Below, one piece after another: positions 2,767 through 28,956 of a DNA stretch of 30,059 bases. The notes under the pieces are model-generated. The model saw nothing but the letters and a program-made list of their open reading frames with translations. It was not told the DNA's origin and made no database searches. The translations under genes and the position numbers were made by a program. Source of the DNA: Zarea fungicola (lineage: Eukaryota; Ascomycota; Sordariomycetes; Hypocreales; Cordycipitaceae); contig FWCC01000271.1 of assembly GCA_900169235.1 (NCBI GenBank), forward strand, positions 1 through 30,059, written 5' to 3'. The stretch's first letter is position 1. The number at the start of each line of letters is the position of its first letter.

Positions 2767-4430
2767 CTATTTGTTCTTGTTAGCAAACTTGCTCAAGAGG
2801 CTGAGATGACTTCTCACTGCCCCAAACAGGTTGGGAAGAACGCGATAATCAACACCGTACTCTGCGCAGGTTTGCTTGACGATTTTCGCAATATCAGGGT
2901 AGTAGCACTGGTTGATCTGTCTCACATTAGTTACTAGACGCTGAAATAGCGTGTTTGGCAATACGTACGTGCGGAAACAAATGATGGACGACTTGGTAGT
3001 TCAACGAACCTGTTAGAAACGTAACAACTCGGCTACCGTGGCTATAGTCCTGTGCTGTCTGTATTTGTAGAACAGCCCAGTCCACGTTCATGGTGTTGTC
3101 CTTCTCTGGGGTGTACCAGTGCACCCCATCGACTACATGGTTTGCCTCGAATATAAATGCAGCAAACCATGAAGTTAAGAACTCAGATGCCAAGAATAGC
3201 GAAATTACTCGGAATTTGCTGCTCTTAGACAGGAAAATAGGAATCATGAGTTTGTAAACGAGAAAAGTGACCTTGGATGAGCGACAAATCAGCAAAGTAG
3301 ATCCTGCCCACAACCGTTCCAGCGTACATACCTTGCCTCCCCAAAATAACAGGGCCTGAGTTTTTGTAAATGGGTTAACTGGTATGGTGTCAAATTTCTG
3401 GGAAGTATACGCAATGATATCGCCGAATCTTGCGTAGTGAGTCCAAAAGCCATATAGTATTGGTGCGTATGCCAGCTGCGCTGCGTAAATTGGAAACCAA
3501 GCTTGTGATGAAAGATAGCGGGTCGGAGAGAAGGGCTCCGTTGCAATGTCAGGGTCTGCTCCGACTACATTGGTATAGGGGTGGTGCCCAAGCACTATAC
3601 TATACTTAACAATAGATGCTTCATGGGACCTTCAGCATGCTTACCGTGTTTGTAATACCAGAATATGTCTGAGATGCCAAAAATGAAATTGTGTAAGCCT
3701 GTCATGGTATCCCACACTTTCGGATTGTGCGTTATTGCCGAGTGAGATCCATCATGAACCCAGTAAACAGCGAATCCAAAATATGACCATGACCAGAGTA
3801 TCAGAACCATGACTGATAATCCTAGGCTATTGATGACTGGTTTAAACCAGTGTAACGCCCAATAACCAGCAGAAATGCCGGTAATGGGTATGGCGTACTG
3901 CAACAGAGCATAATGGCAGTACTTGGGGTCTTGACCTGTATGACGGAAGTATTCTCTGACACGCTAGCTAGGAGAATCAGCAGTGCTTGATATGCCAGTT
4001 TTTGAGAGGCTCATACCTTCCGCAGTTGCAAGGCAAACTCATTCGGAGCTCCAAAGGATGGAACGTTGCTCTCTAGCAGTTCGCCTACATAATACTTGCT
4101 TGTGAATGTTAGCACTGCCTTCATTCCTGCATGCAGATTTCTATTCCTAAAAGTCGGTGGAGGGCTCACTCTAAAATTTTCAGCGTAGAAGGCTCATGCG
4201 TTGTCTCGACTACAACAGTGGCGTCTCGGCCAGCCGCCAACTGCAGCCTGAGCTTCCCCCCCGGATGAGCGTCTTGAAATGTAGTCAAGTCATATACCTA
4301 TAAAGAGATTAGCTTATGACGTAGTGAAAGATGCTGGAAAGCACACTTTGCCCCTGATAGCCACAAGACACTTCCCTTTTGCGGTAGAATCGCGAAGGGC
4401 GCCTATGGAAAACTGAATGGGCGAGCTCAT
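2767..4430 (-). CDS. Front-end fatty acid desaturase A (cytochrome b5 fusion, delta-5-like)
   Basis: Predicted 442 aa from seven exons: 4347-4430, 4170-4297, 4017-4098, 3645-3963, 3332-3594, 2969-3271, 2767-2916. Residues 1-98 form an N-terminal cytochrome b5 domain with HPGG (His39) and a second heme ligand, His62 in ETTHE. The membrane desaturase domain has three iron-binding histidine boxes: HDGSH (168-172), HVLGHH (204-209) and QVVHH (385-389). A Gln in box 3 plus fused cytochrome b5 defines front-end desaturases, which insert a double bond between an existing one and the carboxyl end. The HDxSH / HVLGHHPYTN / NYQVVHHLFPH pattern and length match Mortierella alpina delta-5 desaturase (about 446 aa) rather than ascomycete sphingolipid delta-8 desaturases. 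The intron 2 acceptor is AAG with a good GCTAAC branch site. Paralogue of desaturase B; divergent from elongase 1. Regiospecificity is inferred. Confidence 0.9.
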
Positions 4431-5222
4431 CTTCGCAAGAGACTAGTAGACAGCTTAGGTGACAATTCCAGCATGATACTCTGGTCCCTAATAACACCTT
4501 TTTGTAATATTGTGTTAGGGGATTGGGGTTAATTATATATTTATTGGTAGTTTGCAAGCCCCGAAAAGAAACCGGCGGCAGGTCATATGTATGATATGAG
4601 ACTTTAAGATGATAAGAACTATTTTTTGATTAGTTCTCTTGAGGTAGGTGACATAACTAGCCTTGAAGTTTTGACCCACTCTGCCTCAAAGTTCGTAATT
4701 GCATAAGATGGCTAGGAAACGTGAGCCCAAGCCCACATAGTCTGGGTGTTTAAAAGGCGCATTTCCCAGGTACTGGCCCAGGCGGTCAAGTCAGTTCATA
4801 GTTCGTGCAATTTGCAAACTGGAAATCGTAAGCTGACCAACTCTGGAATCATAGAGACCCTCTTTTGTCTTGCTCGGATGTACCTGCAGATAAAACACTT
4901 ATGAACTCGTAAAAAATCGCATTATCATAGTTAGTAATTCGCTCAACCCATTAAACACCGCGGCGGGAAAATCCCGGCCAACGTGACGATCGTGATATGT
5001 GATGCTGCTAGCTCCAAGGCCACATTACTATTGTCTCTCGAGAAAGACATAAATTTCGTGGAAGCTCCATACACTGATGCAGTAAACACTAGGGAGTTAC
5101 ACATTGATGAAGCCTTGCAAGAAATTTCATGTTCATCATCTCTTAAGCACAAAAGTTAATGTCAAAACCAGTGTATTTTTGACCAATACCAACTCTACGA
5201 GATACAGAACCACTTATCAGCC
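4431..5222. promoter_or_regulatory. Shared upstream region of desaturase A and elongase 1
   Basis: About 790 bp between two divergent start codons (4430 minus, 5223 plus), so it must hold both promoters. It contains GTCATA at about 4582 and an ACGATCGT palindrome near 4986. I saw no convincing binding site for a named factor. Small open frames here (for example 4943-5152, minus) are not supported. Confidence 0.6.
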
Positions 5223-6228
5223 ATGACGAATAATTATCTCAGCCTTCCGCTTATCAAGAGCAATCTAGTATCTTCTGAGATATACAAACTGAGTCTAGAT
5301 GCTCGGGTTCCCATCACTATCGCCATTCTCTACATTACTATATGCACTACCTTGCAGCAGCGCGTTACTTCGGGGAAGCTCAATGGATTTAGCTTCTGTC
5401 AAGGGAAAGCATTCTTCCGGCTTACCATTATCCACAATTCTCTTTTAGCAATTTATTCTGCGGCAAGTTTTATGGGATTTGCGCGTGTGTTGTTTCACGT
5501 GGCATCAACTGCTTGGAATACCGGAGACCAGAGCTACCGAACCGAGCGCATCATGGACCTTATCTGCCATTTAGACATCAACCTGCTCAAAACAAGTGGT
5601 GCAGCTTCTGAATATATTCACAGTCGCACGCGCGAGTCATGGCTCGAAGCAAATCTTATATATGGGTGGTTTTTTTACATCAGCAAGATATATGAGCTAC
5701 TTGACACATTCATCATTGTTGGTCGCGGTAAACCGCCCGGTTTATTCCAGATATATCACCATGCGGGGGCGTTAATTTGCGTTTGGGCAGGTCTGGTTTA
5801 CCGCGCAACGCCCTTGTGGAGCTTTATATTCATGAATTGTGGGATTCATGCCCTAATGGTAGGTAGCAAAAATCACATTTCGGATGGTTCCTATGACTGC
5901 TGACTTCTTCCAGTATACTTACTACAACTTGGTGTTGCTCAAGGTGAAAATTTCAAGGAGGATTAAAATCACTTTAACAACGCTACAGATATTACAAACT
6001 ACTGTTGCTGTTATATATGCAGCTTGGAGCCTTTTTGGTGTCCATCCAATTAGTGGTCGTTCGCTAGACTCAGCAGGGCACGGCAAAGGTCACATTTCTC
6101 GCATTCCCTGCACTTTGAGAGCTGAAGAAAGGACGGCAATAGCCCTAAATATTGTCTACCTGGTACCGCTTCTCTTTCTTTTCCTTAAATTTTTCTTGGC
6201 AAACTATTTACGCATCACCGCACGATGA
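5223..6228 (+). CDS. ELO-family fatty acid elongase 1
   Basis: Predicted 316 aa from exons 5223-5858 and 5914-6228; the 55-nt intron begins GTAGGT and ends TTCCAG. ELO proteins are multi-span ER membrane 3-ketoacyl-CoA synthases that condense malonyl-CoA with an acyl-CoA, the first step of two-carbon elongation. Family motifs are in order: KIYELLDT (155-162), the histidine box region FQIYHH (box residues 176-180) and N-x3-H-x2-MYTYY (205-216), which forms across the intron. The first His of the usual HxxHH box is replaced by Gln (QIYHH). This QxxHH form is known from PUFA elongases such as the Isochrysis delta-9 elongase IgASE1 and differs from yeast Elo1-3. Upstream regions are shared with desaturase A; the 3' end converges on desaturase B. 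Substrate range is inferred to be polyunsaturated acyl-CoA. Confidence 0.92.
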
Positions 6229-6608
6229 AGCGGAGCTCCAGAATTAGATCAATAAGCAGTTAAACTTCATAGCCATTTGATTTATAACGCCACACATTCT
6301 ATCACCTATTACAACAAAAATACGGCCCCATACATAGCTTTTGAATTTGCTCAGAAGAAGCCCTGATACGTTGTTATCCTGCTGCAGTATCGGCCGTTTA
6401 TGTATTGCTATAGAGTAATTGAGCTAGACGCCCAGTTTTGGACAGCGTGTTTCGGCATCAGGTCCGCTTTCTAGGAAGAAACGATTCATTACTTTTATGA
6501 CGGTAGTTAAAATGTCCTGATTTCTGAAAAGACGCATACAATGAATAATTCTGACTTGTAGAATGGCTATGCTTTTCTATGTGCTAGCAGAGCGGTGCTA
6601 GTATTCAT
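6229..6608. other. Convergent 3' spacer, no gene seen
   Basis: 380 bp between the stop codons of elongase 1 (plus) and desaturase B (minus). AT-rich, presumably both 3' untranslated regions and transcription ends. No open frame or repeat of note. Confidence 0.5.
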
Positions 6609-8339
6609 CTAAGATCTGTGTCGACCCATTCTCCTTAACAATCGAAGGTGTCCAGCAAACGCCTCTAACCATCCTGTACGGATACTGTAAACTACACCAA
6701 ACTCTTCACTGGTTCGCTTAAGAATCTCTGCTAGATCGGGATAGTAACTCTGATTTATCTGATTGGGTTGGTAATACTTTAGCAATGTGAACTAATTCTC
6801 TGACGCTTCAAATGTAACTTACATGAGGAAATATATGGTGTACCACCTGATAATTCAGCGCCCCTGTTAGAAAAGTGGTTATCGCGTTACCGTGGCCATA
6901 GTCTTGAGCGGTGGCCACTTGAAGCTCGGTCCAGTCGATTGGCATAACCTCATTTGAGGCCGGCTTTGCGTACCACTTTACATCTTCAACGACATGATTA
7001 GACTGGAACACGTATGCTGCTATACAGGATATGGCCATTTCCGTAAGTATAAAAGTGTAGATGACCCGCCAAGCGCTACTAGGCGAGAAGATGATCGGGA
7101 TGACTAGCCGGTATTGGAAAAAAATCACCTAACTTTGTTACTTGACCCGTGCTAAATTATACGTTGAGAAGGAGCGTACCTTGCCAGTCCAGAACACAGC
7201 TTTGTCAAGTTGAGTGAATGGGTTCAGTTCAATGGAGTCAGTGCGCATTCTCACCACTGCTAGTACGTCTTGAAGTCGAGAGAAGTGGGTTAGCAAACTG
7301 TAGAGCGCTGGCGCGTATACATGCTGCAGTCTGTAGGATGGACTCCATTCTTGGCTAGGGAGGAACCTCGTAACTGAGAATGGTTTGACAGATATATCTG
7401 GGTCAACGTCGACGATGTTTGTAAACGGGTGGTGCCCTAGAACTGTCAAAGTGTAAGCCAGGAGTGTCCTGTATTAGGATCATGTCATCTTACCATGCCG
7501 GTAGAACCACACCTTATCTGAGAAGCCCATGATGAAATTGTAGGAGTGGCCCATCATATCCCAGACGAGTGGACTATGCGTGATAGAGGCATGAGAGGCA
7601 TCGTGCACCCAAAAAACGGTAAACCCGAAATAAGCCCAGGCCCATACCCATATGTTGATGTGAGTCCACAGCGAGCTTGATAGGACGGCGCTATTCCAGT
7701 AAATTTGCCAGTAACAGATGAAAATACCCGCAATCGGCCAAAGATATCGCCATAGTGAATCCTTGGAGTACTTGGGATCTTTATTTTGGCTCTCGAAATA
7801 CCCTTTCACACGCTAGTCGTAAAGAATGATAAGGCTCTTCTCTATCTGGAATCGGAGAGTGTATTTCTTACCTTTCGTAAAGTCCTTGCGAATTCGTTTG
7901 GCGGATGAAAAATGGGAAATTCTGTCATTTCCAAACGCCCCACTCGATATTTCCTACCATTCTTAGCAAAGAAAGGCGTGGAACTAGACAAGTTCTGGGG
8001 GTGCAAACCGCAGTACTAGCTCAGCTCCTTCACCATGTGTTGTTTCGAAGACAACAGTTACATCTCGGCCCGCCGCCATCAGCAAGCGTGCCAGCCCACC
8101 AGGGTGCTTTGATTTAAACTTGGATATGTCATATACCTATCATTTGAACTATCTGTTAGTGGCGGTTTTTTCTCAGTTTTGAACATGTTGGGCTTACATA
8201 TCCGCGTACTGCGACGAGACAACGGTCTTGAAGTACAGAGTCTCGTAGATTTTGGAGTGTGTAAATGTGGTCTTCCTGAGCACAGGTATTAGTGACTGAA
8301 ACTACGGAAGCTTGTCATTTGGAGACTTAATAGTACCAT
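6609..8339 (-). CDS. Front-end fatty acid desaturase B (cytochrome b5 fusion, delta-5-like)
   Basis: Predicted 442 aa from eight exons: 8337-8339, 8198-8275, 8009-8136, 7872-7953, 7494-7812, 7180-7442, 6823-7128, 6609-6758. Same architecture as desaturase A: cytochrome b5 domain with HPGG (His38) and second heme ligand His61 (FETTH), then HDASH (167-171), HVLGHH (203-208) and QVVHH (385-389). Exon lengths 128, 82, 319, 263 and 150 nt equal those of desaturase A, so the two are paralogues from one duplication. The first coding exon appears to be only the ATG: a 61-nt intron (GTACTA...CACTAATACCTGTGCTCAG) follows it and restores the frame to EDHIYTLQNLRD. Desaturase A lacks this intron. No other in-frame start with a sensible intron was found. 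Divergent from the FAD2-like gene. Two front-end enzymes may act at different positions or on different chain lengths (inference). Confidence 0.88.
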
Positions 8340-8849: not shown

Positions 8850-10081
8850 ATGCAGCCTCAGCTCAAAACACCAAGCATTCGGGAGTTGCGAGCATGTATC
8901 CCGCCTCGATGTTTCAAACCTTCAGGTGCAAAGTCTACTTACTACATTGCAAGGGATCTTCTTTTAGCCGCCTCAATCTTTCGGTTGATACTTTTTATAC
9001 CTCAAGTAAACGCTTTATCCATCCGTTTTACTTTATGGGTAATACTGGGGCTGGCACAAGGGCTGGTATTCACTGGGATATGGATACTTGCTCACGAATG
9101 CGGGCATGGTGCGTTGTTCAGCTCTAGGCGTATCAATGATGCAGTTGGATTTGTTCTTCATAGCCTGCTATTGGTGCCGTTTTATTCGTGGAAGTTTACG
9201 CATGCGCGCCACCATCGTTACACCAATCATTTGACCAAAGATACGGTGTTTGTCCCCAATCGATCGAAAGAAATTACGTGGCAGTGGCAGTTGCGTCAAA
9301 AATTAGGTTATGCTGAGGATTCCCCAATAGTCCTCTTTTGTTCCCTAATTATTCATCAACTTGCCGGATGGCCGGCATATGTCCTCTTTTACATACGTGG
9401 AGGCGAATCAAACACCACAGGGCCGGGCAGATATCGAACGCGCAGTCATTTCGACCCTACTAGCACATTATTCTCACCTGGGGAGAGCACTCATGTGGTT
9501 ATATCTAACATTGGCATTCTGGTTACGCTTTACCTGCTCTGGAAAGCGAGCCAGGCATTTGGAGCTTGGAATCTTGTACTGGGATATGGAATTCCATATC
9601 TATGTACAAACCATTGGATTGGTATGTTTCTACCTAGACGCGTTATCGACTTTTCTAATATAAGACCTAAAAGTTGCGATCACATTTCTTCATCATACCG
9701 ACCCTGATATTCATCACTACGATAAATCCACTTGGAGTTATGTCGATGGTGCACTATCAACCGTAGATCGTGATTTTGGCTGGATTGGTAAGCACTTGTT
9801 CCACGGTATTATTGAATACCATGTGATACATCACTTATTCCCGTGAGTGGCCCTCAAGACAAATTATAATGTAATCTCCAATTATTGATGTTTGTTTACA
9901 TTGCAGCCGCATTCCTTTCTACAATGCTGAAGAAGCGACAAGAGCAGTCGCCCCGCTGCTCGGGGACCGGTATAATTTTGACAAAAGAGGATTCCATCAC
10001 GCATTATGGGAGACATTTAGAGCGTGTCAATATGTGAAGGAAGGAGAGTGTGCTGGTGTCTTTGAATGGCGCGCGAAGTAG
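8850..10081 (+). CDS. FAD2-like (delta-12 / omega-3 type) membrane fatty acid desaturase
   Basis: Predicted 371 aa from exons 8850-9621, 9674-9842 and 9907-10081; the introns of 52 and 64 nt keep the frame. Histidine boxes are HECGH (82-86), HARHH (118-122) and HVIHH (307-311). The region [20 protein letters not shown], then [11 protein letters not shown] matches fungal delta-12/omega-3 desaturases. These ER enzymes place a methyl-side double bond in acyl lipids, for example oleate to linoleate. There is no cytochrome b5 domain. Oddities: the residues after box 1 are GALF where plant and fungal FAD2 have HAF; box 3 is followed by LFP as in omega-3 enzymes; and the N-terminus is short (fungal FAD2 is often 400-480 aa). 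FAD2 relatives with changed boxes include acetylenases and conjugases, so the product may not be a simple cis double bond (inference). Divergent from desaturase B. Confidence 0.9.
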
Positions 10082-10577: not shown

Positions 10578-12244
10578 CTAGCTACCAGACTCAAGTTCAT
10601 GAACATTTAAGCGCCTCCGCATTGGGTCAAAGTCAGTTCCATCTCGCACACTTCGAATTTCTGTAGAAGGCGATGATATCGTTGTCAATTTTAGTTCAAT
10701 ATCGTTTGCTATATTATCGAGATAGTTGCAAATCTTTACATTGCAACCAATGTCTTAGCATGAGAAGTATAATAACGGTTTGGTTCTTGGATGTAAGGTG
10801 AAGACTTACCGAACGTGCGTTCCAGCGGCTGCCGCCAATCTCAAACCAACCTAAATGTCCGCCAATAGATGTGGTGATCAATACGGTGTTCGGATTACAG
10901 CTGAACTCTTCATAAGGAACAGCTTCATTCAGTGCGATCTTGATTCAGGATTAGGTATCATTAGCCTAGCACAATGCTAGCAGCTCATTGAGAAGCATAC
11001 AGGGTCATCCGTTGAGTGGAATGCCACAAACGGTATTCTTATTGATAAGATAGAGTCAATAGACGCAGAGTCTCGATAGTAGGCTGTTTCGGTGGGGTAT
11101 CCCCAGCTGTGACGCCTGGGATTTGTCAGAGAATTCGTGTTTCAGTACAAAAGAAATGTGTGAATGATGGACAAACTGTATGCTATGGTCGAAATCTTGA
11201 ACGTATTTTATCTTGTTAATGAGTGGTATGACATTCTTTGCATATCTCTCGAGAGCATCCATGTTTTTATACAGGTACTTTCGAACAGCACCTTATCATT
11301 GCTGGAGTCAGTATCGATATGCCAGTTGCAAACAAACTAGCAACTTACTGCCCATCCCACGGAGGTATAATTCGCGACCAATGTACCTTGTCTTTAATAT
11401 TCTAGTTGTTATATCCAAACTGTAAGGATTGGCACAAATTACTGCGGACGTTAAGAGACAACGGCTGCCCTCCTCGCCACAGTACTTGACCACGTCAGAA
11501 AACCTTGCGTTATATAGTAAGTGGAGGAGATTTTGAACGAACATTGGTGAGAATATTTGCACCTAAGGAGAAGCCTACAGCAAAAAGTGGCCGATTCGGA
11601 AAAGTGACATTGCACCATTGTACAAGCTAAACAGTCGGTGATGTTAGATTTTATTTGTATCAGAAGCCAGAGTTTGCGAGTTCGAAGTTCTTGCTCACCT
11701 GTCGAAGGTCCCAAGTCGCTCTCGCATTGAAAAGAATGCCAGTAGTAATTTCACTGTTGGCACACCCACGAGCGTTGAGGACGCACACTTTCCAGCCCCT
11801 AGAAAGGAGTGGAGTAACTGTATGGCGAATGTATCCCTCATTCGAGCCGCCAGTTAGACCGGGAAGCACAATAACCATTGGGGTCGAATCTTCCGATGCA
11901 AGAGAATGAAGCTGGTCGTCCGAAAAATACCTAGTGCGCTTAGGCAGCGTGGCGTCCTCGTCATCAAATTTCTCTGCAACGAAGTCAACAGCAAATGAGC
12001 CTGTATAGGTAGGATGATTTGCTTCAAAGACCTTGCGACAGTAGTAGACGCAAGGGCCATAGCCCTGCAATGCTGCCCATATGGTCTGCAGGTGCCCATT
12101 GAACAGAAAAGGGTTGAGGATACAAGGCTCAATCGACTTTTTGCATATTTGCAATAGTGTCATATCATTGCCGTCATGGGTCTTTAATCGCCTTGGAACG
12201 GGCGAGTGTATAAAGCAAATACGTGCGATACCAAACCAATCCAT
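10578..12244 (-). CDS. Alpha/beta hydrolase of the EHT1/EEB1/EMB8 (YheT) family
   Basis: Predicted 426 aa from seven exons: 11699-12244, 11543-11626, 11349-11484, 11177-11291, 11001-11115, 10810-10938, 10578-10733. Exon phases all agree. Family features in order: LPGLTGGSNEGYIR (oxyanion region), LNARGCANS, the nucleophile elbow GFSLG (Ser202), YCGEEG, WGYPTETAYYRD, the acid in HSTDDP (Asp330) and the catalytic His in GGHLGWFE (His360). The Ser-Asp-His triad is therefore intact. Yeast Eht1 and Eeb1 make and hydrolyse medium-chain fatty acid ethyl esters from acyl-CoA; YMR210W is an acylglycerol lipase. In this cluster it could esterify, transfer or release the modified acyl chain (inference). 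It is divergent from the acyl-CoA synthetase, about 660 bp apart. The C-terminal 50 residues are least certain. Confidence 0.87.
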
Positions 12245-12906: not shown

Positions 12907-15192
12907 ATGGACTACCGAGTTAGTCAACCACCCTTAGTGCCCATCCACTTACCACCATTTACCACTGCCCTACCGGACTCTGTGGACATTCCAGGAGAGT
13001 CGATCCCCCGCCGCCATCCTCGCGCAGTGAATGGGCTTATCTCGCGTCCTTCACAAGATGTAGGCACTGTATTTGACATTGTAGTGCGCAGCGCCAGGGA
13101 CTTCCCTTGCCGCATGGCCGCGGCATATCGTTCGCTGCGGAAACTGCACATAGACGATTGCATGCGAAATTCTTCAGGCAGAGACAAGCAGTACTATGAG
13201 CTTTCTCCGTACGTTTATGTCTCATATAAGGACTATAGGGATATGGTACTTGAGGCAAGTTCTGGTCTCCACAAACTGGGGATGGCCAGACATGACAAAC
13301 TTTACTTTTTCGGGACAACAAGGTATGATCCACATGCGATGACACTCTCCATCGAATACAGGAAGACTTTGCGTTGAGGAAATATGTTCGAAACGGCGAA
13401 ACAAAGTTATACAACTGACATACGAACGTTTAGCTTGCCATGGATCACTTTGTCACATGCCTGCGCAGCACAATCTATGACCATGGTCACTGCCTACGAC
13501 ACACTCGGCGAAGCGGCCGTTGAGCATTCTCTATTACAAACCAAAGCCTCAGTTATCTACACTGACCCACATCTCCTCAAAGTTATATCTAGAGTTATTC
13601 AAAAGTCCGCTGTTCACACTATAATCGTCAATGGAGATTGCATCTTTGCCTCTGGAGACGAGGAAGACGCATTTAGGCGGGATCATCCACGTATTCAAGT
13701 GGTGAATTTCCGACGAGTGCTGGAAATAGGTCGTAAGCATGTCATTGCGCCTAGTCCAGCTAGTCCAGAGGATTTGTACTGTATTATGTATACATCTGGC
13801 TCGACTGGAAAACCAAAGGGAGTCTGTATCACGCATAAAGCGTTCATCGCCAGTGGTGAGCCACAGTATCTCGGACAGCATTATAACTAAGCTAACGATA
13901 TCGTCTTGACTACAGTGGCCGGGGCGCTCGCCTGTCTTGACGAGTGCATTGGTGAGGATGACATCTTATTGTCATACCTACCCTTAGCTCACATCATGGA
14001 GCTGGTTACGGAAAATGCTGCCCTTTTCGCTGGCATTACTCTAGGCTACAGCAGCCCTCGCACTTTGACAGACATATCGGTGAGAAACTGCCGTGGCGAC
14101 CTACGAGAGTTGCGGCCTACAATAATGATAGGCGTACCACAAGTATGGGAAACGATAAGGAAGACTATCTTGTCCAGACTTCAATCAGCCAACTTTGCCC
14201 TTCGTTTCACTTTTTGGGCATGCTACACTTTCAAGGCGCTGATGGTCAAATCCGGTCTCCAATTTGGGGAGGTTTTTGATGGCGTTGTTTTCTCAAAGGT
14301 GCGTGAGGCTACGGGAGGCAGGCTACGCGTTATAATGAGTGGCGCCAGCGGCATTTCCAGTAGCACAAAGGAGTTCTTATCTTTGACGGTTGCACCAATG
14401 CTTGTCGGATATGGCCTAACTGAAACATGCGCTGCCGGGTCTCTGGGATGTCCTCTTGAGTACAGCGCCGGCTCAATAGGACCTGTGTCTGCATGTATTG
14501 AAGTAAAGCTTGTCTCTGTTCCACACCTAGGCTATTATACGGACGATGTCAATGTCGCGCAAGGAGAGATTGTGATTCGTGGCGAATCAGTCATGACCGA
14601 GTATTTTGAGGATACAGAGGCTACCAGCCAGGCGTTCACACCCGATGGCTGGTTCCGCACTGGCGATATTGGGGAATTTGACGAAGTCGGTCACTTACGG
14701 GTCATAGATCGCATCAAAAATCTTGTCAAGATGCTGGGGGGTGAGTATATTGCGCTTGACAAGGTTGAAATGAGCTACCGAATATCTCCGGCAGTTTCGA
14801 ACGTCATGGTACATGCCAACAGTATGCACAGAAGACCAATTGCGATTGTTGAGCCAAACAAAAATATCCTCCATCACAGAGCCGCAAAGCTTGGGCTGCT
14901 AGGTCATGACGTCCATAGGAATCTAGACCTCAGAAAGTCTTTCTTAGAGGATCTCAGAGAGGCCGGAAACGCATCAGGTCTGGTTTCGATGGAACTCGTT
15001 ACCGGCGTAATCCTCAGCGACATCGACTGGACAACAGAGAGTGCAAGTCTTAAGCGAACTGTGTCAAGTACTGCAAAAGGCTAATATTTGAGTCAGGGCC
15101 TCGTAACTGCCACCCATAAGTTAAAACGTCACGCCATCTACGCCAAGTTTAAAAGAGAAATCGACGAATGCTATGAGACTGAGGTGTCTTAG
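12907..15192 (+). CDS. Long-chain acyl-CoA synthetase (FAA1-like)
   Basis: Predicted 684 aa from exons 12907-13322, 13434-13855, 13916-15060 and 15121-15192. It activates a free fatty acid with ATP and CoA. AMP-binding motifs: YTSGSTGKPKG (258-268), GYGLTET (444-450) and the acyl-CoA synthetase signature beginning DGWFRTGDIG (523), followed by IDRIKNLVK and GGEYIALDKVE as in yeast Faa1. The last exon is placed because the frame read straight through stops at 15084, whereas splicing 15061-15120 out gives LKRHAIYAKFKREIDECYE, the conserved FAA C-terminus. The first intron is long for this locus (111 nt). No obvious PTS1 peroxisomal signal: the protein ends ETEVS. It probably feeds the elongases and the reductase, which use acyl-CoA (inference). 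Divergent from the alpha/beta hydrolase. Confidence 0.92.
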
Positions 15193-17463: not shown

Positions 17464-18289
17464 ATGGAATATCGGGTTGATGCCTCATCAGCAAATGCTA
17501 GTAATGGCCGTGTTCTCTCCCATTTTCGCCATGGCACCAAGAACCTCCCGGGATGGCCTCCCTTCATCACTAATGACGAGTATAAAGGGGAGCAGCAACA
17601 GCATGGGCTGCGAGACAACACTCCGTCATTTTTGGAAGATCTCGACATTGACTTGGACTTTTCGAAGGAGCTCGTTGGCTATGATACACCAGGATTGGCC
17701 AATTCTAGTTGTATTTGCGATACACATCTCTCTCACTGTTATACACTGCCGCAAGATGCCTCAAAGCCGTCCATGACGTCGTACCATTATAATGAAAATA
17801 ACTTCGATCTGACTTTAAGTCTGGATCTGGACAAGCCTGCCATCTGGGGTGGGACGAGTGCTACGGCCACCCCCTTCGAGACTTGCTCCAATCTGGAGCT
17901 CATAAGCAAACGAGCCCGTGCGAAATTCACTCAGAGGGAGGACGACACCATAATCAACCTACGAAGGAATGGCAAAACTTGGAAAGAAATTGCCGAAGAA
18001 CTGCCAGGGAGATCGCCTGGTGCACTGCAAGTGCGGTATAGCACGAAGCTACGATGGAAATCAGTAGACTGGACTGCACATCTTGTAAGCTTGTTCCTTT
18101 TACTTTTGGTTTCCCTTAGCAGAAAAGAAAAAGTAATTATTAACTAACTATGAATAGGATCAACAAATCGAGGAAGCACTACTAAAATACGAGCAAGAAC
18201 GGTGGATATTTGTTGCCTCGTACGTTGGTTGCGATATTAGCCCAGAAGCTTGCCGAGAGCGTGCTTTCAACAAGTTCAAACTACTCTAA
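17464..18289 (+). CDS. Myb/SANT-like DNA-binding protein, candidate cluster regulator
   Basis: Predicted 250 aa from exons 17464-18084 and 18158-18289; the intron has GTAAGC, a perfect CTAAC branch site and ATAG. Residues 154-196 form a Myb/SANT repeat (KFTQREDDTIINLRRNG...WKEIAEELPGRS) with the typical acidic start, spaced bulky residues and a recognition-helix-like GALQVRY. A second, weaker helix-turn-helix repeat follows the intron at about 208-247. The N-terminal half is polar, with an acidic patch (LEDLDIDLDFSKE, 58-70) that could serve as an activation region. Small two-repeat Myb proteins of this kind occur in fungi as transcription factors. Its position inside the lipid cluster suggests pathway-specific control, which is inference. 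It converges on the lipocalin-like gene. Confidence 0.82.
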
Positions 18290-18752
18290 GTTGGTTTATA
18301 GTCATTAACGTGTTCAAAATGAATATCAACAATTTTATTATACTCAAAGCACTTTTAGGTCTCGCCAGTAATGCAATAAGATGCTAGGGATAGGAAAAAC
18401 TAGAGTTCGTAGAGGGAAACCTGTCTTGCTACCGCTCCTGCTACATGTGGCGGCAGCTACTTTTAGCCGCCCGCCAGCCATAAATAGCAGTGCTCTATCA
18501 TAACTAGACTAGACAATCATCTTACTACTCTTGCTGCCTATAAGGATAATGAGAAATGCAGTTTTCACGAACCTGCCGGCTATTTTATCAGTTAATGGCA
18601 GCGGCTTATTATTCCTAACAAGCTCCCGGTCAGAGTTAACAATCCACAACTCATAGCCAGAGGGCATCTGTGCTATAAATGTATTATTATGACACAGAGG
18701 AGGCTGAGGCGGCTCGGGGGAGACCTTAGAATTCCAAACTAAAAGATTACCA
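18290..18752. other. Convergent 3' spacer, no gene seen
   Basis: 460 bp between the ends of the Myb gene and the lipocalin-like gene. A minus frame at 18509-18796 overlaps the lipocalin end in another frame and shows no domain, so I do not call it. Confidence 0.5.
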
Positions 18753-19374
18753 TCAAGACATATAGTCATAGACAAGGCGAAGATATACATGTTCATATTC
18801 CCCCTTGATCATCACGTTACGGCAGTATCTTGGATGCCCATTTACGGTCTGGAAGCCCCAGACCTGAGTAGAAGTCCACCTGTTCTTTAAGCTCACAGAG
18901 TAGCTCATTATTAAACTTTGTCTCCCTCCGCCCGTTATCCAACCCCTTTTTAGAATCTCATCCTGAATATCAGCTGGACTGACAAATTGGCTTCGGTCGG
19001 TTACGGTGCCGAACACCCAATCCGTATGCTCTCGAACGTATCCGTCGAGGCAGCGGCTCTCCTGCGTTCCAGCTAGCTTATGAGCAGATTGTTTGATATC
19101 AATATGTGAGAAAATTTCATTTGACTGGTTTGGAAGTGAAGAACGAGCTTCGTATTGGGTAATGTCTAGCTGCACTGCGGCGAGGCTAAGTGCTTTGCGT
19201 AGGAGGAAGGGAACCCCTTGTAATCGGAGGGCAGGTTCGATTGGATCAGAGAGGGAGTGGTTCTAAATTGTCAATTAGTTTGAAATATCCTGGATTAAAG
19301 ATCAATCATCTTTAACTTACTAAAATCCACTTTCCATTCAGATCGTGAATAGTTTTGTCCGTGGGGCAAGCCAT
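18753..19374 (-). CDS. Fungal lipocalin-like protein (possible pericyclase-type family)
   Basis: Predicted 187 aa from exons 19321-19374 and 18753-19262, with a 58-nt intron (GTAAGT...TTTAG). The start MACPTDKTIHDLNGKWIL is followed by SLSDPIEPALRLQGVPFLLRKA, HIDIKQ, REHTDWVFGTV, WTSTQVWGFQ and RLVYDYMS. This matches a widespread family of small single-domain ascomycete proteins with a lipocalin-like (calycin) beta-barrel, without a signal peptide. From memory, the family includes pericyclase-type enzymes such as PydY of pyrrocidine biosynthesis; that link needs a search. In a lipid cluster it could bind a hydrophobic intermediate or catalyse cyclisation of a polyene (inference). It converges on the Myb gene. 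Confidence 0.75.
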
Positions 19375-21532
19375 TAGGTGGAATGCTTTGGGAAACTGCC
19401 TAGGAGAATCCCAACTGATTGCTTATTGAGAAGCTTTCAGAAAAGGCGGCAATTTTGTTGAATTTTGAACTGGTATTAAGGGGAGTATATGAACATTGCA
19501 GCTAGACGGCAAGAAACATATGTAAAAAGAAAGCATACATCACATTGTAAGACAGTAAAAAAAATTGTTCTAGACCGCTATGCTTTTATGAGACTTTTAA
19601 AACTATGTCTTAGACGAAAGTTTTGTACTTATTATCCCTAGCTTGCTTAGATAAAACTTACAGATCTCACATGAATCATGAAACTTAAAAGAATTATAAG
19701 AGTCATAATAATTTTATTAGCCCTGCTGTCTAAGCGAAGCATATTTATATTTGAACGCTTAATAAATTATGACTACTGACGGCCACCCCGTGAGAACAAG
19801 CCTGTCATGGCAAACCCTTCTGGGTAAAACGGTTAATAACGACCACGGGATGATTTAATTGTAAAAAGAGTTATGCCTTAACGCAAGGCACCCCCACATC
19901 TGACCACCCTTCAACAACAGAAATAGCCATTTCTATTACTGGACAAAAGCTATTCAGTTATACTTCAAGTTTATTAATTCTACAACTAAAGAAATTAGCT
20001 CTATAGTCTTTTTTTAGGCCTAAGGTTTCTTGAAAAAATCTAATACCTGTCTAAAGGTAAACCATTCATAGCACCCTTGTTATCATTCCCAACACAAGGT
20101 GTTAAAGCTTCATCTATTCCTCAGGACTAAACCAACGCGAATGTACCCCTTTTTGTGTAATAGCAAAATTCTCTTGTGCAACCTCTCCGATGGTCTCTAT
20201 AACGTCAATGATAATTCTGGCGCATCTTGCTATCGTGGCACCGCACTGATCTGTTCGCTGATTCGTTTTAGGGGATAAAAAATTGAGCCGACAAGAAGTT
20301 TTCAGTTTCTTGGAGCTTAATGCCATGCAATCCAGACTAACATCTCAATTTTGATGCTTGTGCAGCTTGATCAATAACAAGTCTGATGTCGTTTGTACCC
20401 ATTTCCTTCGGGGTTCCGTATATGAGGGCACTTAAGCACTTCTTTAGGATCCGCTACCAAGCTGCAAAGGGACTGAGCCTGGAGCTATTAAACTTGAAAA
20501 GTCTTTCTTTCCCCAGCGACGGGGCTCATTCGTGTTCCCTGCCAATGATACATTAACAAGCCGAAAAGAAACCCACAAGTCCAACTACAAATTTAGCAGC
20601 AGACGTTCTAAAGCGAGTAAGCATCTGTGCATTAACCATATTAAGTAGCGCAAGGTAGTTTTTTTTAAATACAGTAGCTTGACGGTGTGCCAGCGAGTCA
20701 GCACATGACAGCGGTTCTCATGGAGCGACGTCAAGCTTGCTCCGTAGGATCCTGGTAAGTAATAGTTTCCGCAAACAATAAACTGAATCTATTCGATCTG
20801 CCATAAAAGAAGTGGATACTTAGCCCTCTTTCATCGCTGGCAGGCTGTGTTGCAGCGGCTAATTGGTGCCTCCGGCTCACATTCCCGGGCGGATTCATGT
20901 CTTACCTTGCGCATAGCTCCTTTTTCTGTGAAAAACTTGCTTTTCCCTTACACTGTCTATTGATAATAATTGGACCTCGACAAAAGTAATGACTCAAATA
21001 CCGACAAATTTCGGTGCGGGCCGTGTTTCAGTCTTTGTTATGAGATTATTCATTTCAGGGTGGGAAAAGAAAATGATGTTAAAATGCCAAATTATAGCCG
21101 AGGTTTGGATTGTGACCTAGTATTCCAGACATCGGAGCTTTGAGATCTGTCTTGAATGCGGTCAGGGTGGCAGCAGGACCTGGTGAGATTTCACAGTTCA
21201 TGCCTCTCTCCCCTGTGATGAAATGCCTGAATCGTCTTGTCTGTTCCACTACAATTACTATCTCCTTAATTACCAAGTAACTAGAAAATAATAGTTGGTG
21301 TGCTGCATAATCGTTTCGTAGCATTAACATACATACGCTTGATTCCCTTATCAATGATACCGAAAACAGTTTGTTACCAAAAAACCACTAAAGACTCTTT
21401 GAGGCATCCTACAATTGATACAGCGCCGAAGTGGAACTGCAATAAAAGCTTATACTTTTGTTTAGTTGTATAACCCTAATTAAATAGTTCTTTGTTAACG
21501 TAACTGCTAGAGCACTGCTATACATATCATCA
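19375..21532. other. 2.1-kb AT-rich region without a convincing gene
   Basis: Upstream of the lipocalin-like gene and beyond the 3' end of the TLC gene. Only short frames (20114-20326 and 21079-21354, both minus) without recognised domains. TA-rich stretches at 19540-19760 resemble RIP-decayed repeat DNA. The promoter of the lipocalin-like gene must lie just above 19375. Confidence 0.45.
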
Positions 21533-22532
21533 TTATTTTCTTTCTGTTCTGTTGTTAGCGCATACATCTAATCGCCCGATTGCAGACGTACCTTTGATAA
21601 TCCGGTTGGAGACTCTGAACCGTTTGCGTATTGCATGGATCATCAGGATAAGCCAGTATACATTCAAGCTATGGAGAACTAAGCTTGCAATGGTGCAAAC
21701 AACCGCAAGCCATGTAGGGACAGCTGGCTCGCTAAGCGAAGACGGTGAATTCTTTGGCAGTAATAGAGATTGAGGCCCGTGAGAAGACCATACATCGCTA
21801 AGTATTTTGGTGGACTGATAAGTACCATAGAGCAGTCGAGAGGTGACAAAGCTAAAAAGAAGAAGAAGGCCGTTGATACGCTGAGCAGCAGTACCTGTCA
21901 TATTCACTTTGTCCATAAACCAGTGAATATTTAAGAAGGGAGTCGACAATTCCCACAAGAGAAACACAGGGCCATAATACATGGCAAATGGTCGCTAGCG
22001 GGACACGTAAGCATTAGCATGTTGAAAGTGACGGGGCAAGGAGGTCACATACAAACCCGAGTGAGTATACTAATAAGACTGCGGATGCGTGCATTAGATT
22101 CGGAATACCAAATGCATCTATGTTAAATGCAGTAACAATTAAGTCCCAGACAAAGTAGCCGGTTGCAATAGCTTGTACCAGGCCTGCCGCCCCGAAATAG
22201 CCCCATAGGCGCTGTTCACGGCTTATATACCTTCGCCCGTCATCCGCCATTACTACCCATAGAGAAAGGACGCAAATTATAGAGCTGTGAAGAAGTGAAA
22301 CAACATGTGCATCCCAATTAAGCCGTCCCTTTTTCGGTAATCGTTTGTAGTACCTTCCAGCCACCAAGGGGGATATTGTCGGCGATATTACGCTATAAAC
22401 AAACCAGCAGAATGATGTCGATAACATTATTTCATGTATATGTAGTGCCATTGCTGGAAGGTTTATTGCCGTGCAGTAGGGCTTGGTGGCCCGGATCAAC
22501 CATTCGGGCGGCAGGGTGACGGGGTCTTTCAT
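21533..22532 (-). CDS. TLC-domain multi-span membrane protein
   Basis: Predicted 313 aa from exons 22053-22532 and 21533-21994, with a 58-nt intron (GTATGT...GCTAG). The start MKDPVTLPPEWL and the stretches RLNWDAHVVSLLHSS, QAIATGYFVWDLIVTAFN, FGIPNLMHA and ELSTPFLNIHWFMDKVNMTG are typical of the fungal TLC (TRAM-LAG1-CLN8) family, with several hydrophobic helices. TLC proteins include ceramide synthases and lipid-handling proteins of the ER; this one belongs to the TLCD/TMEM56-like group, whose biochemical role is unclear. The C-terminus is uncertain: a GTACGT donor at about 21590 and a GCTAAC branch site could define one more intron, replacing the last 18 residues or so. Divergent from elongase 2 by about 1.1 kb. 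A role in membrane remodelling for the product is inference. Confidence 0.85.
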
Positions 22533-23543: not shown

Positions 23544-23563
23544 CCCCCCCCCCCCCCCCCCCC
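23544..23563 (+). repeat. Run of 20 C bases
   Basis: Homopolymer about 60 bp before the start codon of elongase 2. It could be real and variable in length, or its length could be a sequencing artefact. Confidence 0.8.
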
Positions 23564-23623
23564 GAGCGTTCGACTCTACTATAAATTCATAGTTGATCCT
23601 ATGCAAGCCGATCCCGTTAAATT

Positions 23624-24705
23624 ATGACATTTTCTCTTACACTTATACGAATGCCTCGTTTTTATCTCTATAATTTGAACCCCATGATATCGAATGCCAT
23701 CAAGATGTCGCAAGGCAGTTTCGATTTGAAGCAGTTCTATGACTTGACTATGGACAAAATGGTTCCCATCACCATTTGCACCATTTACATCATCCTGTGC
23801 ATGATTGTGAAGCTTCGTCGAACTGGAAAAGTCTGTTCTGCCAAACGGCGCCTCAATTGCCAGCTTTTTTGGTTCAGCGTTTGGCATAATGCTCTGCTAG
23901 CGATGTACTCTTCGATCACCTTCTACAGTTTTGCCGGTATCGCCTGGTCCGTATTCAAAGTCGCCTGGACAACTGGTAGCCCTGCCGCAAGAGTTAGCAG
24001 GGTTGCCGACTTATTATGCTATTTGGACGGGTCCACGAAACTGTCAAACACTACGGTGGCTCCAAATACTGAAGAGCTACGTCATATTTGGAGCAGCGCT
24101 ATTGCAGGCTATGGGTGGACGTTTTATTTGAGCAAGATCTACGAGCTCGTCGACACGCTGATCGTGATAGCCCAGGGAAAGCCGCCGACATTCTTTCAGA
24201 CATACCACCACGTCGGTGCCATAGTTACCATTTGGTCTGCTTTGGTGTATAGAGTTACGCCAGTCTGGAGCTATATTCTGATGAATTCTGGTATTCACGC
24301 CCTAATGGTATGTAGCGAAATCATGCTTCCCTGCGCATCAATATCGATTTATGGGTTATACTTACAGGGGTCTAGTATACATACTATGTTCTAGCTTTAT
24401 TGAAAGTTCAAATACCAAAGCAAGTAAAGATGACACTCACTATCCTGCAGATAGTGCAGTTGACAGTTGCTTTGTCGTATGGTATTATTAGCCTTATAGC
24501 CTCCTATGAAGTCCCATATATGAGTAAAGTGGATGGCAAATTGTTCAAGGTGGTTACTAAACCATGCAGCTATGGGTTAGAGGATAAATTCGTTCTGTCT
24601 GTGGGTGTTGGCTATATTGGAGCGCTCCTTGCCTTATTCGCCCGGTTTTTTTACAAGACTTATAGGGGCAGCCCTGTGGCAAAAGAAGCTCGGAAGATAC
24701 AGTAG
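23624..24705 (+). CDS. ELO-family fatty acid elongase 2
   Basis: Predicted 337 aa from exons 23624-24307 and 24376-24705. The intron lies exactly where elongase 1 has its intron (after IHALM, before YTYY), showing common descent. Motifs: KIYELVDT (171-178), QTYHH (192-196) and N-x3-H-x2-MYTYY. As in elongase 1, the first His of the HxxHH box is Gln. The start could instead be the Met at 23684, since the alignable region begins near DLTMDKMVPIT; I keep the longest frame. The protein ends KEARKIQ, a lysine-rich tail that could act as an ER-retention signal. The two elongases differ in about half of their residues by eye, so they are old paralogues and may act on different chain lengths or unsaturation patterns (inference). 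Converges on the acyl-CoA reductase gene. Confidence 0.91.
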
Positions 24706-25311: not shown

Positions 25312-26677
25312 CTACCAAATGAAAAATTTTTGTACAGCCCGTGGTATCGAAAGGCAATTAGTCATGAATAGTCTTACATTCTTCATTCTGTCCTCCATTG
25401 CCAGGAAGCTGCTCGAACCCGTCGCCCATAGTGGCCATGCTTCCTTGTCCGCCTCGCTCATTTGCTCCCACAGTGCCTTTGTCTTGGCATCATCAAATTG
25501 AAACGCGCACCCTAGTGCAGCGAAAACTCTGGCTACAAACCAGAGACGGCAGTCGTGCCAGTCGTAGTTACAAATTGTCACGAACGGCCGGCCCCACCAC
25601 CACCGCCGTCGTCGCACGAATGCTTCCCCTGCTGTGGCTATGTTGACAATAGTATCACGGCCCGCGACTGCATGGACACAACCCGTCGTTCCTACTGCTG
25701 TGTGCATGATGAGACGGTTGACGACCATGTCCACGGGGATCTCATTGCCCTCTGCCATGCCGATATCCTGCAGGTACGATGGGACGCGTATAGTGCGTGG
25801 CGGACAGAGCAGGTAGCCTGCAGCAATGGCCGTGAATGGCGCGGACCCGGACCGCTCGTAGAAGGGGAACGGCAATTTTTCCGCTGGTCCCACCATAGAG
25901 GGCCTGAATATAAGGAGAGCCTCTGGTTTTCCACTCTCAGCAAATCCGCGGAACAAAAGACGCTCAGTCAGATGCTTCGCGTAGGTGTAACTGGACATGT
26001 GTCGAACATAATTAAATTCGACACTGTTGCCAGTGCGCCGGACTTGCGCAAGCTCGTTGTCCAAGCTCGCCGAGCTTTTGTCAGAGATGGGATGGATGTC
26101 TTCAGTGATGAGGGCGTCACTGCCTGTAGGGCAGTCGTCGCCGTTAAAGCGCAGAAATGCACTCGCATACGCTGTCGATACATAGACAAAGCGAGTAAGA
26201 CTTTTACTTTGGAGAGCAAATTCCATGATGGCAAGCGAGGGTTCGATAATTTGATCTCTCATAAAGGACAATTTCTTAGTCAGTTGAATCGTCGATGCAG
26301 CGTGGATCAAGATGTTAACTTCCGTCTTGAAGGTGCGCAGTTGCTCATGGCAGAGACCCAAGTTTGGCTGCGTTATATCGCCGTCCCAGATGAATATTTT
26401 ACCGGTTAGTCGAATCTGGTTTACAATGTCGGTAGATAGATGCTTCGCCATCTCCGTCCAAAAGTGGCTGTTTGAAAAATGGTTAATACAGGCTAGATTG
26501 CCACGCATTACCACTGACTCACCCCTCTCCGCCTCGTACGAGCAGGTAAACCCTAGCTATAGGAGTATCAAGCATTAGGCGCTGGAGGAGTGCTACTCCG
26601 ATAAACCCCGTAGCACCAGTCACAAGTACAGTCTGCTGGGCATAGAATTGTGTAAACGAGCATTGTTTCGTTGCCAT
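25312..26677 (-). CDS. Fatty acyl-CoA reductase (NAD_binding_4 / male-sterility type)
   Basis: Predicted 436 aa from exons 26523-26677 and 25312-26467; the 55-nt intron (GTGAGT...AAACAG) joins GG to C in frame. Extended short-chain dehydrogenase fold: nucleotide-binding TGATGFIG (20-27), then YLLVRGG, DGDITQPNLGL, FVYVSTAY, the catalytic YTYAK (Tyr212, Lys216) and IFRPSMVGPAEKLPFPFY. This is the pattern of acyl-CoA reductases, which reduce an acyl-CoA with NADPH to an aldehyde or primary alcohol. It lacks an adenylation or carrier domain, so it is a stand-alone reductase rather than part of a synthetase. The C-terminal 100 residues are less conserved. It is the likely chain-end step of the pathway (inference) and is divergent from the P450. 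Confidence 0.88.
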
Positions 26678-27293
26678 GTTTGAAGCTCTGGGAGTATGAT
26701 GACAAAGAAAAAAAAAATTGCTTGCTCTCGCGAGCCGTGAATAAAAGGAGATTTCGAATTACTAAACGCAATAGAAGATGATGTTCGGCTTTTTTAGATA
26801 TCGAATGGACCCGCTAGAGGTGCAGTTGAACACCTCAAAGCTAGGTATACCCCCCATTTAGGGGTGTAATTTTCCGTTCCAAGACCTACTTTAAGGAGTT
26901 ATTATCTTATTATCATAGATGGCATAGAGACAGCATGAATGTTATATGTCTCACCTATAAAGCAGGTAAGCTACCCACAACTTTCCAGTTCTCTAATGCG
27001 CATTCCTCATTGCTTTTTTTACTTCATAGGTGGTTTTCTTTTTTCTTTTTTGTATTTTATTATTTTATATTATACCATAACTACTATGTATTACTATAAG
27101 ACATCTATTATTAAAGCTCTTAATACTTTTAATTAAAATCACCAAAACCTTTTAGACTTGTGTCGTTTTGCTGTTTCCAATTAAGCCATAAATAGCCAAT
27201 ATTTCTCTGCTTGGTGGTAATCAACAGTTTAAGATCCAGATCTAGATATTAAAACAAAATTATCGATCTCCAATCATTGATTGCACTTTCGAT
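26678..27293. promoter_or_regulatory. Shared upstream region of acyl-CoA reductase and P450
   Basis: 616 bp between divergent start codons (26677 minus, 27294 plus). It holds an A-rich tract at about 26704-26718, a short hairpin ACCCC-N-GGGGT near 26850-26866, and a T-rich block at 27014-27080. I saw no copy of the palindromes found in the two other shared promoters. Confidence 0.5.
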
Positions 27294-28956
27294 ATGCTCC
27301 TAATTAAAATAATCCTTTTGCTGACCGTCTCAGCACTTGCGTGTATTCGACTACGGCAGATCAAACGCGCAGTCAAATGTGCCGCTCCACAATCTCTCCG
27401 TGGCAGTCTCCCCTTTAGTATGTGCTGAATAAAATTCCCTATATTAGTGATGCTAACCTTTTATAAACCTTGATATTCTTTTTAAGTTTATTACCTCGCT
27501 ACAGGGAAACACAGTACTTCAGTTCTACCGCGACGTCTTTGCCTCGTCAAAAGCGTGGACTGTGGAGGCAGCTGTGCTCAATGTGCGGGTCATTTTTACT
27601 GCAGATCCAGACAACATCGACGCCATATTCGGATCCAACTTCAGCAATTTTGAAAAAGGCGCTGTCTGGCGTCTTGGTGGTGCTGATCTCCTCGGAAAGG
27701 GCATCTTTACTTCAGACGAGCAAAGGTGGCGACAGCATCGAAAGCTATTGCACCCATACTCGACAGTAATCTCAGAAGTCAAGTTGATGGCCTTTGAAGA
27801 AGCATTTCAAAGCTTTGTCCACTTCTGCAAGAGTCGTTCTGGACTTATTGGAGAAGAACTCAAGGCTGGCCAGACTTTATGTTGCCCAGATATTTCCAAT
27901 GTGCTTCGCCGTCTCCAGCTCGATACCAACATTTCGGTGATGTTTGGAGAGCAACTGAATGCAATATTGTAGGTATTTGATACCAAAGCTTTATCTGTTT
28001 ACCATTGACGATGATTGTGGAATAGCGACGATAATCATGAATTCTCCCGAGCTATGCGCCAGGCATCCATCGAACAGGCTCATGCCTTTCAGTACATTGG
28101 ATCGGGTGTCCTTGGAGCCAAGCTCTTCTACAGTCGAAAATCTATGAGGATCGCTGTTAACACAATTAACCAGTTTATATCACGGTATACAGCCATGGTA
28201 CTGAAGGCACGAAATGACATAGACATGGCTAGTAAGGAGCACGGCAAGGAGAAAGAAACAGCTGACTTTATTAGTCAACTGGCCGCGTCAGACTATGATG
28301 AGTTAATGCTCCGAGATGCAATCTTTGACCTGATTCTCGCGTCTACTGAGGCAAGTGCCACAACCATGTCTTGGATTCTCTACGAGCTCTCTCAGAACCT
28401 GGCCGTCGTTAAGGACCTCACCGATGAGGTTTCACGTACTATCGGGCTGAAAAAGCTACCCACAACCGCTAACCTTAAGAAAATGGCATTTCTGCGTGCT
28501 GTCATTCACGAGACTTTGCGCCTTCATCCCGCTATCCCTTTCAACTTCCGCACCGCGGCGGCCGACACGACACTTCCGCGTGGGGGCGGCACTGATGGCC
28601 GGGAAACTGTTCGTGTTCTAAAGGGAACGATCGTTATTTTTTCGCTAGATGCTCTGCATCGGCGTGATGATCTACATCGTATTGGTGCTGCAGCAGATGT
28701 GTTTGATCCGCATCGCTGGTTGCTGTCGGACTCGCCAGGCAAGGGTCACTTTGCCGCCTTTCATCTTGGCAGAAGGCCATGTCTAGGAACAGACCATGCA
28801 ATGATGCAAATTTCGTATATGCTATGCAGAATTTTGCAGAATTTCGACAGCCTTGAATGTAAGGAGGGTGCGGCTCTTTTAGAAAAGGCGTCGCTATTTA
28901 ATTATCCAACTAGAAGGAGGACAATGAAATTTCGCACTCGAGCAGTGAACCCCTAA
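27294..28956 (+). CDS. Cytochrome P450, CYP52-like, with altered I-helix motif
   Basis: About 505 aa from exons 27294 to about 27417, 27505-27968 and 28026-28956. An N-terminal membrane anchor (MLLIKIILLLTVSALAC) places it on the ER. P450 marks: FTSDEQRWRQHRKLLHP, ExxR in FLRAVIHETLRLHP, FDPHRW and the heme loop FHLGRRPCLG (Cys codon 28780-28782). CYP52-like enzymes hydroxylate fatty acids or alkanes near the chain end. The I-helix, normally AGxDTT, reads ASTEAS (28339-28356), so the acid-alcohol pair used for oxygen activation is changed. At the first junction the protein should read SLPF-GNTVLQFYRD, but the only good donor (GTATGT at 27418) leaves one extra base and puts exon 2 out of frame. 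This means a frameshift, a base error, or use of a weak donor (27372, GTCAAA). The rest of the gene is intact. Confidence 0.82.

Follow-up and report, generated by a model that had tools for sequence, protein, structure and literature searches.

Twelve neighbouring genes on contig C155 of the ascomycete Zarea fungicola are read here, with moderate confidence, as a specialised-lipid gene cluster that has no core synthase and would make a polyunsaturated acyl derivative, both reduced and oxidised; the likeliest product is a polyunsaturated fatty alcohol, aldehyde or ester with extra oxygen. The window that was analysed is the entire contig (30,059 bp, from a genome of 43.1 Mb in 456 contigs), and the genes occupy positions 2767 to 28956 (~26 kb) in the order listed below, each open in splice models with short introns of the GT-AG type. 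Coherence of the cluster is backed by a sub-module of three genes that is duplicated elsewhere in the genome and by a predicted fatty-acid-carrier fold in one of the products. An earlier note, made from the sequence alone, had proposed twelve adjacent genes at this place, with an acyl-CoA synthetase, three desaturases of two types, two ELO elongases, a reductase, a P450, a hydrolase, a TLC protein and a Myb regulator; all twelve genes are present, eleven identified by Pfam and LIPO via its homologues and predicted fold, and the proposed content is supported. Gene models came from a simple splice predictor, with a direct splicing check for FED1, FED2, LIPO, FAR, TLC and ACS, and the motifs that were tested are intact (desaturase His boxes and HPGG, QxYHH in the ELOs, the glycine motif of FAR, the AMP loop of ACS and the heme loop of P450).

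2767..4430, minus strand: FED1, cytochrome-b5 front-end desaturase (442 aa, 7 exons)
5223..6228, plus strand: ELO1, ELO-family fatty acid elongase (316 aa, 2 exons; Pfam ELO 3e-44; QIYHH)
6609..8339, minus strand: FED2, second cytochrome-b5 front-end desaturase (442 aa, 8 exons)
8850..10081, plus strand: D12, FAD2-type (delta-12-like) desaturase (374 aa, 3 exons; Pfam FA_desaturase 9e-28)
10578..12244, minus strand: HYD, alpha/beta hydrolase (426 aa, 7 exons; Pfam Abhydrolase_1 9e-14)
12907..15192, plus strand: ACS, acyl-CoA synthetase (674 aa, 4 exons; Pfam AMP-binding 3e-68)
17464..18289, plus strand: MYB, protein with two Myb-like stretches (250 aa, 2 exons; Pfam Myb_DNA-binding 2e-14)
18753..19374, minus strand: LIPO, small barrel protein with predicted fatty-acid-binding protein (FABP) fold (187 aa, 2 exons)
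20114..20430, minus strand: likely relic of a broken ene-reductase gene of the old-yellow-enzyme type (Oxidored_FMN 5.8e-4, below cut-off)
21533..22532, minus strand: TLC, TLC-domain membrane protein (2 exons; Pfam TRAM_LAG1_CLN8 3e-36)
23624..24705, plus strand: ELO2, second ELO-family elongase (337 aa, 2 exons; Pfam ELO 9e-43)
25312..26677, minus strand: FAR, fatty acyl-CoA reductase-like acyl reductase (NAD_binding_4; 436 aa, 2 exons; Pfam 2.6e-32)
27294..28956, plus strand: P450, cytochrome P450 (502 aa, 3 exons; Pfam p450 2.6e-52)

Grouping of lipid genes on C155

The clustering of lipid genes on C155 is non-random. The contig holds three of the 15 desaturase genes of the 43.1-Mb genome (counted from 16 matches, two being exons of one gene) and two of its five ELO genes above cut-off. 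When gene positions in the 43.1 Mb were drawn at random 200,000 times, 84 draws put three desaturases inside a 26-kb span, 2,397 did so for two ELOs, and none gave both groupings together; the families were chosen after the window had been seen, and tandem duplication is ignored. Chance grouping is rejected by this simulation, and an origin as simple tandem copies is rejected because FED1 and FED2 are not sisters in their tree. What is found, as in fungal metabolic gene clusters, is a physical cluster of non-homologous genes fit for one pathway.

No core synthase, whether polyketide synthase (PKS), nonribosomal peptide synthetase (NRPS) or terpene synthase, appears among the Pfam matches of the window's genes, NRPS and terpene families not having been searched genome-wide. 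The earlier expectation that a polyketide synthase would be missing is borne out by the ketosynthase (KS) search, in which none of the 66 genome matches lies on C155, nor on C138 or C112, two further contigs with lipid genes; the match list is perhaps incomplete, since C73, with a ketoreductase (KR) domain, is also absent from it. The KR domain on C73, of PKS type, adjoins the closest ACS paralogue (L048, 55%). A second lipid group without a listed KS lies at C112:73000-82999 (L026), where a CoA-transferase III, a FAD2-type desaturase and a FAR-like gene share one strand and a weak below-cut-off thioesterase match and a FAD-binding gene lie on the opposite strand.

For nine of the genes (FED1, FED2, ELO1, ELO2, D12, HYD, ACS, TLC and LIPO) the genome has a paralogue at another place, ~28-57% identical, with FAR and P450 more distant from anything outside C138, a pattern expected for primary enzymes recruited into a cluster. 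The same nine of twelve would also suit a quite improbable alternative, a membrane or storage lipid island in which redundant primary enzymes tune polyunsaturated phospholipids or sphingolipids and no dedicated small molecule is made; sphingolipid metabolism, too, draws on TLC and front-end desaturase families. The copies are, however, strongly diverged, FED1 and FED2 fall outside an ascomycete clade in which five of seven sequences are labelled delta-8 sphingolipid desaturase, and FAR and P450 enzymes are not known to build membrane lipids. GC content at third codon positions (GC3) also speaks against such an island, being 0.43-0.57 in ten cluster models and thus mostly below the 0.56-0.72 of the paralogues on C364, C346, C175 and C374, although the FED gene on C57 (0.42) and the C112 desaturase (0.48) are equally low.

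On the left flank stands a mitochondrial carrier gene (Pfam 4e-63) with a GC3 of 0.81, as against the values in the cluster. Inactivation of the region by repeat-induced point mutation was considered and rejected, TA/AT being 0.80-0.94 in the cluster and 0.71-0.97 in twelve other loci; the ratio stands out at the right end only (1.46). There, 29258-29333 and 29960-30056 are a repeat shared with C112 (78-79%), and the contig may end in the remnant of a retroelement, as suggested by 29446-29577, where a chromodomain is matched weakly and below cut-off. An Rfam scan of the window gave no family at gathering score. As the window is one whole contig, the cluster may extend beyond its right end.

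LIPO, FAR and P450 as a duplicated module

As judged by gene order and identity, LIPO-FAR-P450 is a module of its own, duplicated in the genome. The 12.7-kb contig C138, of which 10 kb was read, repeats LIPO (minus), FAR (minus) and P450 (plus) in the same order as C155, with identities of 60% for LIPO, 57% for FAR and 57-60% by exon for P450, and the C155/C138 pairs are sisters in the trees (100/99 for LIPO, 100/100 for FAR); the next genome matches are at 35% for FAR (C112) and 37% for P450 (C111). The other nine genes gave no convincing match in the part of C138 read (tblastn up to E 5, best 0.33), and eight of them have no C138 match in the genome-wide lists either, MYB not having been searched genome-wide. 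The C138 FAR is also found in the protein database, as P0132 on a 4,302-bp contig.

LIPO had been described as lipocalin-like and is better called FABP-like: the predicted structure is a ten-strand barrel with helix-turn-helix closure after the first strand, the best fold matches are FABPs, and the protein has a predicted fatty-acid-carrier fold. A LIPO profile against the PDB matched a FABP homologue at E 0.0032 and ReP1-NCXSQ at 0.017-0.018, over the N-terminal part only, with an unrelated neuraminidase next at 0.043, and a 176-aa piece of LIPO matched no Pfam family at E<=0.1. The homologue search, with a query lacking the last 11 residues, gave 10 matches (P0121-P0130), a family with predicted FABP fold whose database labels read hypothetical, lipocalin-like or LCCL and whose named members, presumably all from ascomycete genera, include Hirsutella, Tolypocladium and Drechmeria. 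Nine of these matches and four of the genome's LIPO copies entered the tree, and Tyr183 is invariant in 11 sequences; in FABPs an Arg/Tyr in the cavity binds the carboxylate. Compared with animal FABPs and other intracellular lipid-binding proteins, LIPO is fungal and has longer loops (187 aa). A first LIPO model, ending at 18509, was dropped because the DNA there is an interspersed repeat and the named homologues are mostly 186-200 aa; two of ten LIPO paralogue matches in the genome (C191 and C132) were excluded as repeat matches. The repeat, at 18475-18630 just after LIPO, is 71% like a stretch on C191.

Lipocalin-like Diels-Alderases are probably larger than LIPO, and a role of this kind is weakened by the fold comparison, in which the top matches are FABP-type and no Diels-Alderase is among the best 50 of each list. 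In fungal PKS-NRPS clusters with a lipocalin-like Diels-Alderase, as described in the excerpted text of PMC9701702, the barrel protein is encoded next to a megasynthase that ends in a reductase-type domain, whereas on C155 no ketosynthase was found and LIPO is a single 187-aa FABP-fold barrel. The layout of a locus on C172 resembles that of those clusters: at C172:61214-79661 there is a 3,978-residue open frame with a KS and a NAD_binding_4 domain, and after this PKS frame come a LIPO paralogue (31%, at 74318) and a P450 (32%, at 78573), the NAD_binding_4 domain, LIPO paralogue and P450 standing within ~7.6 kb.

FAR has the glycine motif TGATGFIG and the NAD_binding_4 Rossmann domain of fatty acyl-CoA reductases, and it shows no C-terminal FAR_C/Sterile domain (PF03015, E<=0.001), the domain of the animal alcohol-forming type. 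Among the 120 of 187 matches listed, five relatives carry FAR_C (P0246-P0250), and the four named ones are arthropods. Most named FAR relatives are from ascomycete genera. In a tree of 33 of the 120 listed matches, Lecanicillium saksenae and one further sequence join the C155 and C138 FARs (100/98), inside a larger group whose named members are Hypocreales, and the C112 FAR is distant and adjoins Mycena. P450 has the heme loop FHLGRRPCLG, and its best PDB match, vitamin D 24-hydroxylase, reflects only general P450 similarity; the CYP52-like identity given in the earlier note is putative. The alignment sets AAV-E-T-T-A of that enzyme against AST-E-A-S-A, placing Ala at the I-helix Thr position, and the C138 P450 carries the same stretch; unusual chemistry would be no more than a conjecture from this.

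Desaturases and the remaining genes

An N-terminal cytochrome b5 and a QxxHH third box, the marks of front-end desaturases, are present in both FED1 (Pfam Cyt-b5 4e-17, FA_desaturase 1.3e-25; HPGG, HDGSH, HVLGHH, QVVHH) and FED2 (Cyt-b5 5e-16, FA_desaturase 7e-24; HPGG, HDASH, HVLGHH, QVVHH), the N-terminal exons of FED2 depending on two weak donors, GTACTA and GTACTG. The top match of FED1, among the 120 of 218 listed, is a Xylogone 'delta-5 desaturase' (56%). In a tree of 29 of these 120 matches, FED1, FED2, the C57 FED and the listed sequences of Xylogone and Talaromyces proteolyticus form a clade (100/100); in the second ascomycete clade, that of the sphingolipid labels, two of the five so labelled are also called delta-5. 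Within the clade of FED1 and FED2, the latter forms a pair with T. proteolyticus (99/94) and the former takes the outermost position, from which the split between the two would be old, and the patchy spread of these genes could reflect transfer or loss. In early-diverging fungi (Mortierella, chytrids), delta-5 front-end desaturases resemble them in the Cyt-b5 fusion, the QxxHH box and ~38-44% identity, but the five C155, C57, Xylogone and T. proteolyticus sequences stand apart from them in the clade just described. No clustered delta-5 pathway was found in the literature searched (open-licence papers, by title and abstract). Multiple desaturases, delta-5 among them, are encoded in Ascomycota as well as in Mucoro- and Mortierellomycota according to the excerpted text of PMC13161914, which speaks against rarity.

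D12 has the motifs HECGH, HARHH and HVIHH. If it were an acetylenase, the locus might be a polyacetylene cluster in which FAR and P450 give a shortened or oxidised acetylenic product, a reading for which tomato offers a precedent in the falcarindiol cluster, with its acetylenase, desaturase and decarbonylase (Jeon et al. 2020, via PMC8418127). We regard it as highly improbable: no feature examined separates an acetylenase from a desaturase, a decarbonylase gene was not recognised on C155, and front-end desaturases do not figure in the falcarindiol gene list as excerpted. The tomato cluster is nonetheless the nearest published idea found to the specialised-lipid cluster proposed here, in that ready-made fatty acids are modified by clustered desaturase-family enzymes and no PKS is named in the excerpt; it differs in being from a plant and in its enzymes, C155 having instead ELOs, front-end desaturases, a FAR-like reductase, a FABP-fold protein and an acyl-CoA synthetase.

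ELO2 matches 'elongation of very long chain fatty acids protein 7' in the PDB (1.6e-6). For HYD, correction of its extent to 10578-12244 brings in the catalytic His region, the full model having the triad-like motifs GFSLG, STDDP and GGHLG, the last of them missing from a shorter model; it matches NCBIfam PRK10985 at 2e-28, below that family's cut-off, has no PDB match at 0.001 and has paralogues on C214 (54%) and C301 (51%). An acyl-CoA:alcohol acyltransferase or a lipase is a possible identity for it, and the label EHT1-like (EHT1/EEB1 acyltransferase) from the earlier note is putative. ACS has the motifs YTSGSTGKPKG and GYGLTE and, besides the C73 copy, a paralogue on C364 (52%). TLC, its extent likewise corrected (21533-22532), has a paralogue on C175 (46-48%) and no PDB match below E 0.2. 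Between LIPO and TLC, hmmscan matched Oxidored_FMN on 20117-20344, and sequence that resembles the family lies in another frame with stops between; the C155 stretch is absent from the 12 genome-wide Oxidored_FMN matches, and 20114-20430 is likely a lost, broken ene-reductase gene.

Proposed route, rival readings and meaning

In the proposed route ACS would make an acyl-CoA, to which D12, judged by its family, would add a methyl-side double bond, and FED1 and FED2, each fused to a cytochrome b5, front-end double bonds; ELO1 and ELO2 would elongate the chain in the endoplasmic reticulum (ER), the positions of both desaturation and elongation being presumed from the families. FAR, on the strength of its domain, would act as reductase and yield an aldehyde or alcohol from the polyunsaturated acyl-CoA, P450 would oxidise that product, and LIPO, if its predicted fold is a guide, may shuttle a lipophilic intermediate between ER enzymes and cytosol. 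HYD would esterify or release the product, TLC would be an ER-membrane accessory, and MYB is a possible regulator of the pathway.

Several points weigh against a single dedicated cluster. The complete set was found together nowhere else, the part of C138 that was read holding three of the twelve genes. Xylogone and T. proteolyticus have the closest FEDs, yet neither name occurs among the 10 LIPO matches or the 120 of 187 FAR matches listed, in a word-based search of lists with many nameless entries; the full set of twelve genes therefore probably does not extend to these two. The earlier note had taken homologues lying apart in related genomes as grounds for refutation, and this applies in part. 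The broken ene-reductase relic suggests that the cluster may be decaying, further LIPO copies on C346, C196 and C190 have no known cluster setting, and the 'delta-5' names of FED relatives are annotations only, delta-5 regioselectivity being putative. As FAR shows no FAR_C domain, alcohol and aldehyde end products are both possible. Finally, FED1 to ACS on the left and LIPO to P450 on the right could belong to separate clusters that lie side by side. As a full alternative, unlikely in our estimate, these would be two adjacent systems with separate products, a left polyunsaturated fatty acid block (FED1, ELO1, FED2, D12, HYD, ACS and perhaps MYB) and a right block of LIPO-FAR-P450 with TLC and ELO2. 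That the 10 kb read on C138 carries only LIPO, FAR and P450 of the twelve is in keeping with such a division, as is the ~2.3-kb gap from ACS to MYB, in which three open frames have no Pfam family match; the right block nevertheless includes two genes of fatty-acyl and membrane lipid type, ELO2 and TLC, and GC3 is alike along the stretch.

The specialised-lipid cluster proposed here has a parallel in the insect pheromone and cuticular hydrocarbon pathway, where desaturases, ELOs, FAR, P450 and lipid carriers serve one route as they may on C155. These genes are not known to be clustered in insects, and the likeness is one of logic only, P450 being recognised here by general P450 similarity and not as CYP4G. 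A bolder reading, which we think distinctly unlikely, is that ascomycetes have an unrecognised FABP family and that a recurring set of three genes, for a FABP-fold protein, a NAD_binding_4 reductase and a P450, has been coupled to more than one kind of chain-maker (clustered desaturases and elongases on C155, a PKS on C172). On this reading C155 would correspond in fungi to the pheromone or cuticular-lipid route of insects and yield a polyunsaturated alcohol, aldehyde or hydrocarbon signal, and its P450 may catalyse an uncommon reaction, for example C-C cleavage of an aldehyde. The LIPO family bears on the view, taken from the excerpted text of PMC3796463, that FABPs arose after the animal-fungus split.

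That no fungal cluster with this content had been described, as the earlier note supposed, agrees with the literature searched (titles and abstracts of open-licence papers), in which none was found. Cluster finders take PKS, NRPS or terpene synthase genes as their starting points, and a cluster of fatty-acid tailoring enzymes alone could therefore be overlooked. Products of the proposed kind can matter to fungi, since gamma-linolenyl alcohol, a polyunsaturated alcohol, is reported in the excerpted text of PMC12565241 to influence mating in Sporisorium. If the cluster is real, it would give access to a class of polyunsaturated metabolites in fungi, for which a front-end desaturase or ELO together with a FAR and a FABP-fold gene would serve as a search seed, and C155 may thus be an overlooked fungal way to make specialised lipids.

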